Source of the DNA: Nocardia stercoris
GTDB lineage: Bacteria > Actinomycetota > Actinomycetes > Mycobacteriales > Mycobacteriaceae
Direction of reading: 5' to 3'
DNA length: 64,000 nucleotides
Assembly (NCBI RefSeq): GCF_003696265.1
Contig: NZ_RFFH01000002.1
Location: 248,001-312,000, forward strand
Shown: positions 5,545 through 63,956 of the stretch, in pieces
Position numbering within the stretch: the first letter of the stretch is position 1
Layout: the number at the start of each line of letters is the position of its first letter
Translations under genes and position numbers: made by a program
Notes under the pieces: generated by a model
The model's input: only the letters and a program-made list of their open reading frames with translations
Told to the model about the DNA's origin: nothing
The model's database searches: none

Positions 5545-6034
5545 GGTCAACACTCCTCGAGTTGGTGGGCACCGTGCGGCGCCCGAAGCTTTGTTCGGTG
5601 AAACTGTAGGGTTCGCGCCGGATAAGCGGGTCATCCGAGGCGCGACGCCCATCGCGGTAGGGCCAGGGCCTGCTGGACAGCAGACAGCCACCACCGCGTC
5701 GATGGGTGACCGTTCGAGGGTACTGACCGCAGCGAAACAGGTCAAACTCAGCCCAGACGGCCCCTGCGCCACTCCACCAGCGACCTGCGAATATCGATAG
5801 CCCCCGGATTGCTGTCCGGCGACACTCGGCCGGTCGGCCCGGCCTTCCCGCTACGGGACGTGCCGTGAACGCGTAATCCACATCTGTGGATAATTGTGTG
5901 GAAACAGCGACGCGGTGGCATATCGTATGGCAACCCGCCAGCCCGGACGAGCGAACCCACACCCGCGCACGGGGAGACGCGGACCGGTGTCCGCCTGTCT
6001 GCTTCTTTCGACCGATTCGGGGAGGAATACGTCC
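5545..6034. other. rpmH-dnaA intergenic region (no gene seen)
   Basis: A 490-bp divergent regulatory region. It should hold the rpmH promoter on the left and the dnaA promoter on the right. The only clear elements are the DnaA-box cluster at 5874-5905 and the dnaA ribosome-binding site GGGGAGGA just before 6035. I see no convincing gene in it; the long open frames crossing it are products of high GC content. Confidence 0.7.
5874..5905. promoter_or_regulatory. DnaA-box cluster upstream of dnaA
   Basis: Three boxes are packed in 32 bp: TAATCCACA (5874), the perfect inverted TGTGGATAA (5885) and the weaker inverted TGTGGAAAC (5897). DnaA bound here would be placed to autoregulate the dnaA promoter, as known in other bacteria. 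The short local drop in GC content fits a promoter region. Confidence 0.75.
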
Positions 6035-8335
6035 GTGGACGACGAGCAGAACGTGTTGACCGCAGTATGGCCGGAGGTCGTGGCCGAACTGACCACGGGG
6101 TCGGCCGACGGGTCGATCCCGGCGGTAACCAACGCGCAGAAGGCGTGGTTGGGCCTGGTCAAGCCGCTGAACGTGGCGCAGGGATTCGCGCTGCTCTCGG
6201 TCCCGTCCTCGCTCGCCCAGGAGGCCATCGAACGTGATCTGCGCGAGCCGATCCTGCGTTCGCTGGGCCGCCGTCTCGATCACCAGGTCGAAGGACTCGG
6301 AGTTCGCATCGCCGCGCCGGCCGGCACCTCGGGGGACCGGCAGTCCGGTTCGCCCCGGCACGCTCGGATGACCACCCGTCCCGAGCGGATGCGCGAGGTC
6401 GTACGAGACCCGCGCGATCATCCACAGGCCCAGTCGGTGCCGGAGTACCCGGCCGCCGAGGAGTACGCCGCGCCGCGCTATCACACGACCGGCGACTACC
6501 CCATGGTCGCGGACTATCCCCAGGGTGAGTACCGGACCGGTTCGATGGCCGCGGAATTGCCGGACATCCCCAGGCAGGATCCGATGCGCACCGGGCATCC
6601 GGACACCGGCCGACACCCGTATCCGGAGCAGCTGCGGCCCGCCGACGGGTATGCCGAACAGCTGCGTCCGGGCGAGGGCTACTCCGACCAGATGCGGTCC
6701 GGCGACGGTTACTCGGACCAGATGCGGACCGGCGAGGGCTACCCCGAGCAGATGCGGACCGCCGAGAGCTACTCCGATCACATGCGGTCCGGCGACGGTC
6801 GCCCCGACCAGATGCGGTCCGCCGAGGGCTACTCCGACCAAATGCGGTCCGCGGACACCTACTCCGACCAAATGCGGTCCGCGGACACCTACTCCGACCA
6901 GCTACCCCCGGCCGAATCCCGCCGCCCGGTCCACCCGGAACCGGTCCACCAGGTCCGCCACGAGCAGCTGCGGCAACCGATCCACGAGCACGAGCAGCTG
7001 CCGCGACCCGGGCACCCGGCCCGGCAGGAATCCCTGTTCGGCGCGGAATCCGATGCGGTGCAACGACGTCCGCTCGAGCAGCCGCACGAAGCACCGCGCC
7101 ACCCCATGGAACAGCCGCGGCATCCGATGGACGAGCAGCCGCGCCGGCCCGTGGACGAGCAGCCGCGGCATCCGGCACCGGAACCGCAGCGCGGTCCGGC
7201 GCAGCCGGATCCCGCCGACGACGAACCGGTAGTGCCGGTGCGCAACTCCTGGCCGTCGTATTTCACCAAGCCACCGGAACCGGCCGCACCCGCGGCCGCG
7301 CAGAACGGTGCCAGCCTGAACGCGAAGTACACCTTCGAGACCTTCGTCATCGGTGCCTCGAACCGCTTCGCACACGCCGCCGCGGTGGCGATCGCGGAGG
7401 CGCCGGCACGGGCCTATAACCCGTTGTTCGTCTGGGGCGCTTCGGGTTTGGGCAAGACGCACCTGCTGCACGCGGCGGGCCACTACGCCCAGCGGCTGTT
7501 CCCGGGTATGCGGGTGAAGTACGTCTCCACCGAGGAGTTCACCAACGACTTCATCAACAGCCTGCGCGACGACCGCAAGGTGGCGTTCAAACGCCGCTAC
7601 CGCGAGACCGACATCCTGCTGGTGGACGACATCCAGTTCATCGAGGGCAAGGAAGGTATCCAGGAGGAGTTCTTCCACACCTTCAACACCCTGCACAACG
7701 CGAACAAGCAGATCGTGGTCTCCTCCGACCGGCCGCCCAAGCAGCTGGCGACCCTGGAGGAGCGGCTGAGGACCCGGTTCGAGTGGGGTCTGATCACCGA
7801 CGTGCAGCCGCCGGAGCTGGAGACGCGAATCGCCATCCTGCGCAAGAAGGCCCGGATGGATCGCCTGGATGTGCCGCACGATGTGCTGGAACTCATCGCC
7901 AGCCGAGTGGAGCGCAATATCCGTGAGCTGGAGGGCGCGCTGATCCGCGTCACCGCGTTCGCCTCGCTGAACGGGCAGCCGCTGGACCTGTCGCTGGCCG
8001 AGGTGGTGCTGCGGGATCTGATGCCCGACGCCACGACGCTGGAGATCACCGCGGCCACGATCATGGCCGTGACGGCGGAGTACTTCAACACGACGCTGGA
8101 CGAGCTGACCGGTCCCGGTAAGGCCCGGCCGCTCGCGCAGGCCCGCCAGATCGCCATGTATCTGTGCCGGGAGCTGACCGACCTGTCGCTGCCGAAGATC
8201 GGGCAGGCGTTCGGCCGCGACCACACCACGGTCATGTACGCCGAGAAGAAGGTGCGCAAGGAGATGACCGAGCGTCGGCGGGTCTACGACCAGGTGCAGG
8301 AGCTCACCGCGCGCATCAAGCAACGTTCGCGGTAG
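6035..8335 (+). CDS. dnaA: Chromosomal replication initiator DnaA (extended domain II)
   Basis: Initiates replication by binding DnaA boxes and melting oriC. The start is GTG at 6035 ([12 protein letters not shown]), with GGGGAGGA upstream. Domain I covers about 1-95. Domain II runs from about 110 to 425 and is far longer than in most bacteria; it is acidic, rich in Pro, Gln, Arg and His, with ten decapeptide repeats at 196-295. Domain III has Walker A GASGLGKT at 468-475 and Walker B DD at 531-532. Domain IV ends with the DNA-recognition motif [14 protein letters not shown] (DHTT at 729-732). The total is 766 residues, longer than typical mycobacterial DnaA of about 500. An in-frame start upstream at 5894 lacks domain I similarity. 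Confidence 0.97.
6620..6919 (+). repeat. Ten 30-bp tandem repeats in dnaA domain II
   Basis: Ten consecutive 30-bp units encode decapeptides of the form [13 protein letters not shown]. The last full [10 protein letters not shown] unit is an exact 30-bp duplication (6841-6870 and 6871-6900). Earlier units vary at a few residues (PEQL, AEQL, SDHM). The repeats stay in frame and are confined to the linker domain. Confidence 0.95.
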
Positions 8336-8425
8336 TTCGCGCGGACTTTTCCGACGCGAGCCGATCATCGGCTCGGCGGTCTGTCCCCATGGTGGACAAC
8401 AGTTGTCCTCGAGTGCCGATCCACA

Positions 8426-8465
8426 AGCCGGTTCCCCCCTCCGACCTGGGGGAACCGGCTTTTTT
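8426..8465 (+). terminator. Rho-independent terminator of dnaA
   Basis: Perfect 13-bp stem AGCCGGTTCCCCC (8426-8438) with GGGGGAACCGGCT (8448-8460), a 9-nt loop, then a run of six T. It lies 90 bp after the dnaA stop and would keep dnaA transcription out of oriC. Confidence 0.93.
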
Positions 8466-8472
8466 CGGATGT

Positions 8473-8512
8473 GGATTCCTCGAGGAGTCCTTGTGGAGTC
8501 CTCGAGGAATCC
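8473..8512. repeat. oriC inverted repeat, copy 1
   Basis: Two 18-bp arms, each containing TCCTCGAGGA, are separated by TTGT and are inverted with one mismatch. The element begins GGATTCCTCGAGGAG and ends CCTCGAGGAATCC. It is nearly identical to the element at 8648-8687, with two differences in 40 bp, and similarity continues a few bases past its right end. Confidence 0.9.
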
Positions 8513-8647
8513 CGAGTCTGTACACCGGTTTCCGCACAGCTTCGCCCCCAGGCTGGGGAGGGATCGACTCACAACCGGTAGTCCACAGTGTGCACAGGTG
8601 AATCCGTCCACGGGCCCTGAGCAGCGGCGTTGCCGAGTTGTCCTCGA

Positions 8648-8687
8648 GGATTCCTCGAGGAGTCCTTGTCGACTCCTCGAGGAATCC
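8648..8687. repeat. oriC inverted repeat, copy 2
   Basis: Perfect 17-bp inverted arms GGATTCCTCGAGGAGTC (8648-8664) and GACTCCTCGAGGAATCC (8671-8687) around CTTGTC. It lies 175 bp from copy 1 in the same orientation, directly after a TTGTCCTCGAG (8638) and just before another (8693). Confidence 0.92.
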
Positions 8688-8890
8688 CGGGTTTGTCCTC
8701 GAGTCGGCGCACAATGTGCAGAAGTGGGCTCGGATCATGGAAGAACTCGAGGATGGCTCGAGGATGGAGTTGGGACAGTTTCGGTGGCTCCACAGCGGCC
8801 CGCTGTTCATCCTCGAGACACCCCCTGGCCATCCCCACGGCGCCACACGCTCCGACCTGCGCGGATGGCTGGACTCCACAGAATCCACAG

Positions 8891-8939
8891 CGCCTATTAC
8901 TACTTCAGTTCTTCTTCTAGAAATCTCTCTTCAAAACAG
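8891..8939. other. AT-rich patch, candidate DNA unwinding element
   Basis: About 49 bp of markedly lower GC (CGCCTATTACTACTTCAG and onward to TCAAAACAGG) in a genome near 68% GC. It is preceded by two near-DnaA boxes (CTCCACAG, ATCCACAG) and followed by the inverted TGTGGAAAC. This position would suit a duplex-opening site; it is an inference from composition. Confidence 0.55.
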
Positions 8940-9308
8940 GATGTGTGGAAACTCGGCTCGAGGACGGATCGACCGGACTCCAGCCGCACACCGGACTCGA
9001 ACGAGGCATCGAGGGGAAGGGGGTCCACCGGATCACTCGGAACTCACGCGAGGAGCCCGCACCGGTCCGAGCACTCGACTCCTCGGTGCTCCTCGCACCG
9101 GACTCCGGAGTGGCACCACATCGGACAGCGGTGGCACCCACAGGACACGGCCCCACACCCGTTCCTCGAGCCTGCTACGGTTTCTTGTCGGTCGCCTGTG
9201 CCAGACTCGTCGGCAACGGATGTGGGGACCGATCAGCACTTCCACGCACACCAGCGCGCTGCGTGTAGAGATCACCACTGGTCGACACTGGAAAGGACAG
9301 ACCCGGCG

Positions 9309-10478
9309 ATGGAGCTTGCAGGCATGAAGTTTCGGGTCGCACGCGAGGATTTCGCCGAGTCCGTCGCATGGGTGGCCCGCAGCCTCCCGTCGCGCCCGCC
9401 GGTGCCCGTTCTCGGTGGCGTGCTGCTGGTAGCCGAGGAGGACGGCCTGACCGTCTCCGGCTTCGACTACGAGGTCTCCGCGCAGATGCGGGTGGCGGCC
9501 GAGGTCGCCGGCTCCGGTCAGGTGCTCGTCTCGGGCCGCCTGCTCGCGGATATCACCAAGGCGCTGTCCAACAAGCCGGTGGATGTGTCGGTGGACGGCA
9601 CCCGCGTGCTCATCGCCTGCGGTAGCGCCAAGTTCTCGCTGCCGACCATGCCGGTGGAGGACTATCCCCAGTTGCCCGAGTTGCCGCCGCAGACCGGTGA
9701 GCTCGGCGTCGACGTGTTCTCCACCGCCATCGCCCAGGTCGCCGTCGCCGCCGGCCGCGACGACACGCTCCCCATGCTGACGGGCATCCGGGTGGAGATC
9801 GAGGGCGAGCGCATCGTCCTGGCCGCCACGGACCGTTTCCGGCTGGCTGTGCGCCATCTGGAGTGGAAACCGGGCCGTCCCGATGTGGAGACCGCCGCTC
9901 TGGTTCCCGCGCGCACGCTGTCGGAGTCCGCGAAGACGCTCGGTACCTCCGATGCGCCGGTGCAGCTCGCGTTCGGCGCCGGCACCGACGGCCTGCTGGG
10001 CATCGTCAACGGCGGCCGCCGCACCACCACCCGGCTGCTGGACGCCGAATTCCCCAAGTTCCGTCAGTTGCTCCCCAAGGAGCACACCTCGCTGGCCACG
10101 CTGCAGGTGAGCGCCCTCATCGAGGCGATCAAGCGTGTGGCGCTGGTGGCCGAGCGCGGTGCCCAGGTGCGCCTGGAGTTCTCCGAGCAGGGCCTGCTGC
10201 TCTCGGCCGGTGGCGACGACGCCGGCCGCGCCGAGGAGTGGATGGAGGCCGACTTCCGCGGCGAGCCGCTGACCATCGCCTTCAACCCCGGTTACCTGAA
10301 CGAGGGTCTGTCCGCGCTGCATTCGGACCGGGTGACCTTCGGTTTCACCACGCCGAGCCGTCCCGCGGTCATGTGTCCGACGGCCGAGGGCGAGCCGGAG
10401 ACCACCGAGTCCGGTGCGTTCGCGGCGCTCAGCGGTGACTACACCTATCTGCTGATGCCGGTCCGGTTGCCCGGCTGA
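9309..10478 (+). CDS. dnaN: DNA polymerase III beta subunit (sliding clamp)
   Basis: Forms the dimeric ring that tethers the replicase to DNA. The 389-residue product has three clamp folds and family blocks such as [56 protein letters not shown] and the C-terminal [10 protein letters not shown]. The start [10 protein letters not shown] is at 9309 with AAAGGA upstream; ATG at 9324 is a possible alternative. The open frame extends far upstream into oriC, but that part is non-coding. A perfect DnaA box and a nearby half box lie between this gene and recF. Confidence 0.97.
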
Positions 10479-10598
10479 TCCCCTGTGGACACTGTTGATG
10501 AATCTGTGAACAACCGTGTGCGCGTGGGGATTTCGTACCCCTCGTTCGAGTTGTCCACAGCCGCAGTGCTGTTCGTTTCCCCGTCGGCGGTGGGATAG
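10479..10598. promoter_or_regulatory. dnaN-recF spacer with DnaA boxes
   Basis: A 120-bp spacer with a perfect TTGTCCACA box at 10551-10559 and an inverted TGTGGACA near 10485. DnaA bound here could extend origin control into this gap or modulate recF transcription. Confidence 0.65.
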
Positions 10599-62885: not shown

Positions 62886-62928
62886 GCGAAGTTATCCACA
62901 GTCTGCACATGGCTGTGGATAACTTCGC
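62886..62928. promoter_or_regulatory. Symmetric pair of perfect DnaA boxes
   Basis: Two 16-bp arms GCGAAGTTATCCACAG (62886-62901) and CTGTGGATAACTTCGC (62913-62928) form a perfect inverted repeat. Each contains a perfect TTATCCACA box; the spacer is 11 bp. It is far from oriC (over 53 kb). Confidence 0.8.
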
Positions 62929-63924: not shown

Positions 63925-63956
63925 ACGGCGCCTGTGGACAACTCCACAGGCGCCGT
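63925..63956. terminator. Terminator-like palindrome after the SDR gene
   Basis: Perfect 14-bp stem ACGGCGCCTGTGGA/TCCACAGGCGCCGT with loop CAAC. The stem sequence is the same as in the element after gltD. It contains TGTGGACAA, a perfect inverted DnaA box, at 63933-63941. Confidence 0.85.

Follow-up and report, generated by a model that had tools for sequence, protein, structure and literature searches.

Dam methylates GATC at the Escherichia coli oriC, and SeqA reads those sites while they are hemimethylated. The same species carries a Dcm-Vsr pair with the target CCWGG, and CTCGAG is the sequence addressed by BsuMI and XhoI-type restriction-modification. For Nocardia and Rhodococcus we know of no mechanism that prevents an origin from firing twice. 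Orphan methyltransferases with motifs clustered at origins are described in passages of Blow et al. 2016 (PMC4752239), according to which the origins of Nocardiaceae, in Nocardia the dnaA-dna polIII gap, carry clusters of CTCGAG that correlate with an orphan CTCGAG methyltransferase and for which a role in replication was proposed. As far as those passages go, CTCGAG clustering at the Nocardia origin has been known in outline since 2016. A partial literature search returned no further publications on this origin.

The window analysed here is a stretch of 64,000 nucleotides from Nocardia stercoris. Its dnaA-dnaN gap agrees with the passages of Blow et al. 2016 (PMC4752239) in motif, gap, genus and the correlated, conserved orphan methyltransferase. 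What the present work adds is a likely writer, a Dcm-type enzyme accompanied by Vsr, a word absent from the main text of that paper. The geometry of DnaA boxes and hexamers, the 11-bp phasing and the one-mismatch test likewise come from the present analysis and do not appear in sections 12 and 15 or the passages of PMC4752239 at hand.

With the Dam-SeqA system the locus shares a putative methylation target that is clustered at the origin, an apparently orphan enzyme and sites adjoining DnaA boxes, in Nocardia also a spacing close to helical turns. Unlike that system, the enzyme is of the cytosine type, a hexamer takes the place of GATC, and the reader is hypothetical here; a search for SRA domains gave no match anywhere, the controls likewise giving none. 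As in the E. coli Dcm-Vsr pair, a gene for a PF00145 methyltransferase is followed by one for a Vsr mismatch endonuclease, but the predicted target is CTCGAG, clustered at oriC, and not CCWGG. Our preferred reading, to which we assign a probability of roughly 60%, is that the 12 CTCGAG sites of the gap are targets of Dcm-type methylation which, like Dam sites, would mark new origins and limit re-initiation through a DnaA that binds separate TCCACA boxes.

The CTCGAG cluster in the dnaA-dnaN gap

The features of the gap, which is likely oriC, are listed in Table 1; the nearest named DnaN has 93% identity, and the region is the dnaA region of a Nocardia. Whereas the genome density of CTCGAG (3440 in 7,545,798 bp, or 0.46 per kb) leads to an expectation of 0.44 in these 973 bp, 12 are present (Poisson P ~8e-14). 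Outside the gap, no 973-bp stretch of the 64-kb window holds more than four. Close CTCGAG pairs number 69 genome-wide against 33 for the control, and five of them, among the matches listed, are in the gap. The original prediction, which had spoken of about a dozen hexamers and of a chance rate well below one per kb, was accurate on both points, and the chromosome-wide count makes clear that CTCGAG is not equally frequent elsewhere. Its three TTGTCCTCGAG elements are also found, at 8403, 8638 and 8693. Overstated was that the hexamers usually lie within TCCTCGAGGA, as the perfect form holds 5 of the 12.

Table 1. Coordinates of genes, repeats, CTCGAG sites and TCCACA cores in and around the origin gap (positions in the window; conservation of CTCGAG refers to 64 aligned Nocardia gaps).
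Feature	Position	Strand	Remark
dnaA	5894..8335	+	longest ORF taken; start codon putative
dnaA-dnaN intergenic gap, likely oriC	8336..9308		bounded by flanking ORF ends; gap kept in relatives
dnaN	9309..10478	+	ATG at 9309
First 11-bp phased array	8473..8512		inverted-repeat arms GGATTCCTCGAGGAGTCC / GGAGTCCTCGAGGAATCC
Second 11-bp phased array	8648..8687		17-bp perfect inverted repeat
CTCGAG core site 1	8479..8484		exact in 58/64
CTCGAG core site 2	8501..8506		exact in 61/64
CTCGAG core site 3	8654..8659		exact in 63/64
CTCGAG core site 4	8676..8681		exact in 64/64
CTCGAG core site 5	8746..8751		exact in 62/64
CTCGAG core site 6	8757..8762		exact in 59/64; 11 bp from core site 5
CTCGAG core site 7	8812..8817		exact in 63/64
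Lineage-specific CTCGAG, inside TTGTCCTCGAG	8408..8413		exact in 1/64
Lineage-specific CTCGAG, inside TTGTCCTCGAG	8643..8648		exact in 1/64; ..TGTG in most relatives
Lineage-specific CTCGAG, inside TTGTCCTCGAG	8698..8703		exact in 2/64; relatives mostly CACC/CACG-type
Lineage-specific CTCGAG	8957..8962		exact in 1/64
Lineage-specific CTCGAG	9165..9170		exact in 1/64
TCCACA core	8420..8425	+	degenerate DnaA box
TCCACA core (as TGTGGA)	8470..8475	-	9-mer box abuts CTCGAG 8479; TGTGGA 3 nt away
TCCACA core (as TGTGGA)	8492..8497	-	9-mer box abuts CTCGAG 8501; TGTGGA 3 nt away
TCCACA core	8582..8587	+	degenerate DnaA box
TCCACA core	8789..8794	+	degenerate DnaA box
TCCACA core	8875..8880	+	adjoins likely unwinding element
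TCCACA core	8884..8889	+	adjoins likely unwinding element
TCCACA core (as TGTGGA)	8944..8949	-	beyond AT-rich stretch
DnaA-trio-like CTATTACTACT	8894..8904		predicted, likely start of DNA unwinding

One scan supplied 80 named loci, the gap being readable in 79 (L074, a contig piece without dnaA, was dropped). All 71 named Nocardia have between 3 and 11 CTCGAG per gap, and six of the eight named Rhodococcus/Prescottella have 7-10; Rhodococcus spelaei has none and Rhodococcus sp. RD6.2 has one. When 64 Nocardia gaps including that of the window were aligned, with eight gaps longer than 1100 bp excluded, seven CTCGAG sites proved to be exact in 58-64 of the sequences, so that the cluster is strongly conserved in relatives, whereas the other five sites of the window recur in one or two. 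Where a core site was lost in this alignment, no one-base variant of CTCGAG is among the replacements listed. The gap thus carries a dense and conserved motif cluster of the kind that characterizes orphan-methyltransferase systems. TTGTCCTCGAG is not conserved, occurring in 13 of the 71 named Nocardia with at most two copies each. Judged from the alignment, its likeness to a DnaA box is lineage-specific, since relatives mostly have TGTG- or CACC/CACG-type sequence at 8643 and 8698. Nocardia carnea and seven similar loci (L057, L060, L061, L063, L064 and L066-L068) have gaps of 1.6-2.7 kb with 3-6 CTCGAG and 4-6 perfect DnaA boxes each, a differently balanced origin.

DnaA boxes, phased arrays and a likely unwinding element

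It had been proposed that CTCGAG repeats stand at this origin instead of canonical DnaA boxes, which is mostly wrong. Perfect TTGTCCACA or TTATCCACA boxes (TTRTCCACA) are missing from the gap and present next to recF and dnaA, as was pointed out at the time: nine occur in the window where 0.18 are expected, among them one at 5885 upstream of dnaA and those at 10551, 11855 and 11932 around recF. The gap, however, contains eight TCCACA cores, with a box next to the trio-like CTATTACTACT. TCCACA is enriched 22-fold across 72 Nocardia gaps, and the boxes of the gap are degenerate at their first three bases. Among the 71 named Nocardia gaps, 52 lack a perfect box and 19 have one. GAATCCACAGCGC leads into CTATTACTACT at 8894, which resembles a DnaA-trio element; a CCACA box followed by a trio-like motif was found in 65 of the 79 named loci. 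Moreover, in 78 of the 79 loci the 24-residue helix-turn-helix of DnaA has no more than two residues that depart from its most frequent form, and in the remaining locus it has three. By its sequence, the gap therefore appears to combine DnaA-box cores with an unwinding element as a canonical origin does, and it shares with such an origin the TCCACA cores, the trio-like repeat beside a box and the intact helix-turn-helix, while differing in its degenerate boxes and in lacking perfect TTGTCCACA or TTATCCACA.

Hexamers and boxes are arranged with some regularity. CTCGAG sites in Nocardia are spaced by 11, 22, 33, 44, 55 and 66 bp, with TGTGGA alternating with CTCGAG in the arrays, and this 11-bp phasing is absent from the eight named Rhodococcus/Prescottella gaps. 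In TGTGGANNNCTCGAG a 9-bp DnaA box lies flush against the hexamer, an arrangement counted 219 times at the 543 Nocardia sites, in rows that are related to one another. Its mirror form CTCGAGNNNTCCACA is present in genera g23, g10 and g27, where counts are not independent either because rows are related. Compared with random placement, direct contact between CTCGAG and a DnaA 9-mer is over-represented (p<0.01) in five of the 11 representatives, namely G049, G081, the window and two further Nocardia; in the other six it is not above random at that level.

A Dcm-type methyltransferase with Vsr as the candidate writer

The genome (97.9% complete) has a single match to PF00145, at G000:C12:481575-482915 and thus about 225 kb from the gap; PF01555 has no match in this genome. 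The PF00145 enzyme is of the Dcm type, as it scores above the cut-offs of PF00145 and TIGR00675 and has the PCQ and ENV motifs of m5C methyltransferases, and a Vsr gene lies behind it. Each of the 29 genomes sampled from genus g1, that of N. stercoris among them, has a strong ortholog. A Vsr gene is within the flank of the methyltransferase gene at 30 of 30 loci, and the two are the only genes common to all 14 neighbourhoods compared; the putative target-recognition region is near-invariant among 14 proteins. Proteins of Nocardia sp. BMG111209 and BMG51109 (P0005 and P0032) are orthologs as well, both strains being named in the passages of Blow et al. 2016 (PMC4752239). For Micrococcus luteus, an excerpt of its methylome study gives CTCGAG as probable m5C (PMC6346199). 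Taken from the protein and motif data, the Dcm-type cytosine methyltransferase with Vsr is likely the CTCGAG writer and would make m5C.

Another candidate, an M.BseCI-like adenine methyltransferase (L083 on G000:C6; E 2.9e-94 against M.BseCI, the target of which is ATCGAT), was rejected as a general CTCGAG writer, as many site-rich genomes have no strong match to it. Strong matches among the 301 genomes are limited to g1 (25 of 28 other g1 genomes sampled), G016 and G172; none was found in g10, g23 and g27, nor in G133 with its 10 sites or G271 with its 9. L083 is probably the orphan ATCGAT enzyme of Nocardiaceae mentioned in passages of Blow et al. 2016 (PMC4752239). Further methyltransferase-like genes are the HsdM-like L084 and a 1225-aa Eco57I ORF (L082).

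The likeness to BsuMI and XhoI-type systems lies in the ortholog P0038, which bears the NCBI name 'putative BsuMI modification methylase subunit YdiP', and in a predicted endonuclease encoded between methyltransferase and Vsr in the six relatives examined. This endonuclease candidate belongs to a family of 275-aa proteins, which is predicted to have a restriction-nuclease-like fold. The family (L212:8554-9378 and relatives) has no match in Pfam, NCBIfam or PADLOC. Unlike in those relatives, no member of the family was matched in the N. stercoris genome, and for this reason, judged on the 275-aa family and the neighbourhoods, the Dcm-type enzyme looks like an orphan here.

The idea that clusters arise where the endonuclease was lost failed within genera. 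An initial set of 29 enzyme-bearing genomes did divide almost cleanly, the 14 without endonuclease having 6-16 sites and the 15 with it 0-6. In g23, however, nine readable genomes with endonuclease still have 7-9 sites (16 without: 11-16), and in g6 it is the 19 genomes with endonuclease that have 0-5 sites and the 10 without that have 0-1. The endonuclease is not the determinant.

Distribution of cluster and enzyme

Origins were read in the window and in 160 of the 301 genomes of the family, which had been picked after the presence of the enzyme was seen; three or more CTCGAG were counted as a cluster. Among the 160 genomes, a cluster is found in 69 of 106 with an ortholog of the enzyme and in 2 of 54 without. 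Both exceptions are incomplete assemblies (G014, 66% complete; G296, 75%). At six loci no dnaA was in reach (G109, G096, G022, G082, G213 and G207), and sites there were counted on at most the last 900 bases, in G213 on 8 bases. After removal of these six, of three rows with fewer than 200 DnaA residues and of five incomplete genomes, 147 complete-enough and readable genomes remain (window included), with clusters in 66 of 100 bearing the ortholog and in 0 of 47 lacking it. Fewer than three sites occur in 37 of the 106 enzyme-bearing genomes, three of which (G213, G096 and G207) are without dnaA in reach. The enzyme thus does not need the cluster.

The correlation expected of an origin-clustered orphan-methyltransferase system is therefore present, but it is statistically weak. 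On the DnaA tree each of the two traits changes only five times, and there are at most two independent pairs on supported branches, so that the association cannot reach significance in a sign test. This bears on the view that a separate origin-binding regulator, one that has nothing to do with methylation, recognizes CTCGAG as its palindromic site, and that the sharing of this site with a methyltransferase is a phylogenetic coincidence. Few independent changes would allow for such a coincidence, a strict palindrome would suit a dimeric binder, and in genus g30 no effect of the enzyme is seen, with 2 and 1 sites in the two genomes that have it and 0-1 in the ten that do not. On the other hand, the only clear within-genus contrast favours the methyltransferase, as the sole enzyme-bearing genome of genus g22 has 10 sites and the three others 0, 0 and 0, and an orphan methyltransferase of the same motif has been published (passages of PMC4752239). 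We consider a separate regulator unlikely.

Strictness of the hexamer

The writer hypothesis and a binding site for DnaA can be compared by the tolerance of the motif. With expectations computed after masking the motif, exact CTCGAG is enriched 23.8x in 72 Nocardia gaps (543 vs 22.8 expected), whereas its one-mismatch words are not (664 vs 801, 0.83x). The corresponding values for exact and one-mismatch words are 66x and 0.48x in g23, 82x and 1.03x in g10, and 50x and 0.41x in g27, and among single one-mismatch words the maximum is 1.8 for Nocardia and 2.8 for g10. TCCACA behaves differently: its pooled one-mismatch words are at 1.8-2.2 across groups (1.83x in Nocardia, single words up to 10.8x), headed by TGCACA, TACACA, TTCACA and TCCCCA. 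Since only the exact hexamer is enriched whereas TCCACA tolerates variants, CTCGAG looks like the target of a methyltransferase, for which all-or-none recognition is typical, as tolerance is for DnaA. The contrast between exact word and neighbours is weaker in g6, a genus with few sites (CTCGAG 6.9-fold, TTCGAG 2.9-fold). The top-enriched palindrome in the origins of its 29 genomes is ATTAAT, with 22 occurrences against 0.5 expected.

The same comparison speaks against the idea, raised in the original prediction, that DnaA itself reads CTCGAG as a variant box of low affinity, the palindromic TCCTCGAGGA arrays loading it on both strands. Some features do recall a box. The hexamer context has TCC.C in common with TCCACA, CTCGAG and TGTGGA alternate in 11-bp steps in the Nocardia arrays, and the CTCGAG at 8643 and 8698 replaces DnaA-box-like sequence of relatives. 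Yet near-matches of CTCGAG lack the enrichment that those of TCCACA show, and the clusters follow a methyltransferase. In addition, the helix-turn-helix of DnaA is unchanged, being identical in R. spelaei (L072), which has 0 CTCGAG, and in L075-L078 and L080, which have 7-10. Of the proposed ways of reading the origin, a factor besides the canonical DnaA box is probably involved, while we hold the variant box to be quite improbable.

Methylation to m5C alongside Vsr should also leave a mutational trace. However, the deamination product CTTGAG/CTCAAG shows no loss outside the origin (1.31x in 921 kb, mostly Nocardia loci), so this trace is missing. A depletion of CTTGAG inside the gaps is only apparent, as its expectation is inflated by the CTCGAG motif itself.

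That the cluster is a mere by-product, either an expanded family of palindromic repeats or hairpins or a set of sites kept by Vsr-biased repair, is very improbable: the two 40-bp arrays are similar and fold strongly (single-strand folding of 8460-8720, z -8.2), but the array word TCCTCGAGGANTCC has eight matches in the genome on both strands, all at window 8473-8687 (reversed control: 0), Rhodococcus-type genera cluster the hexamer without repeat flanks, the positions are kept across 64 Nocardia, and CTTGAG is undepleted outside the origin.

Proposed role of methylation at the origin

According to our preferred reading, methylation of CTCGAG, the PF00145 enzyme of the genome would place m5C in the hexamer; that CTCGAG is a methylation target we infer in part from the 2016 report. 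Replication would then leave the CTCGAG sites of the origin hemimethylated. DnaA is predicted to act through the separate TCCACA boxes, and, by analogy with Dam and SeqA, either the hemimethylated state itself or a reader protein may alter the loading of DnaA until the sites are remethylated, as several of them abut DnaA boxes in the 11-bp arrays. If the CTCGAG marks gate DnaA in this way, Nocardia and Rhodococcus would possess a methylation clock of their own, which would illustrate one path from a restriction-modification methyltransferase to a regulator of replication. A more far-reaching version is that the methyltransferase-Vsr pair, in relatives still next to its endonuclease, was freed from restriction in Nocardia and that 5-methylcytosine in CTCGAG gates the origin, DnaA or a reader sensing hemimethylated origins and preventing their re-initiation, as a clock that arose in actinobacteria independently of Dam-SeqA but resembles it. 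We offer this version tentatively and regard it as somewhat doubtful.

Further features of the window

A 14-bp perfect hairpin, AAGCCGGTTCCCCC/GGGGGAACCGGCTT, lies at 8425-8466 and is followed by a T run; it is likely the intrinsic terminator of dnaA. At the far end of the window, two perfect TTATCCACA form an inverted pair 22 bp apart (62892-62922), with a TTGTCCACA 1 kb further on at 63933, and these boxes could constitute a second DnaA-binding region. Finally, domain II of DnaA, encoded at about 6630-6905 of the window, contains, in the translated ORF, tandem copies of a unit of about 10 residues.
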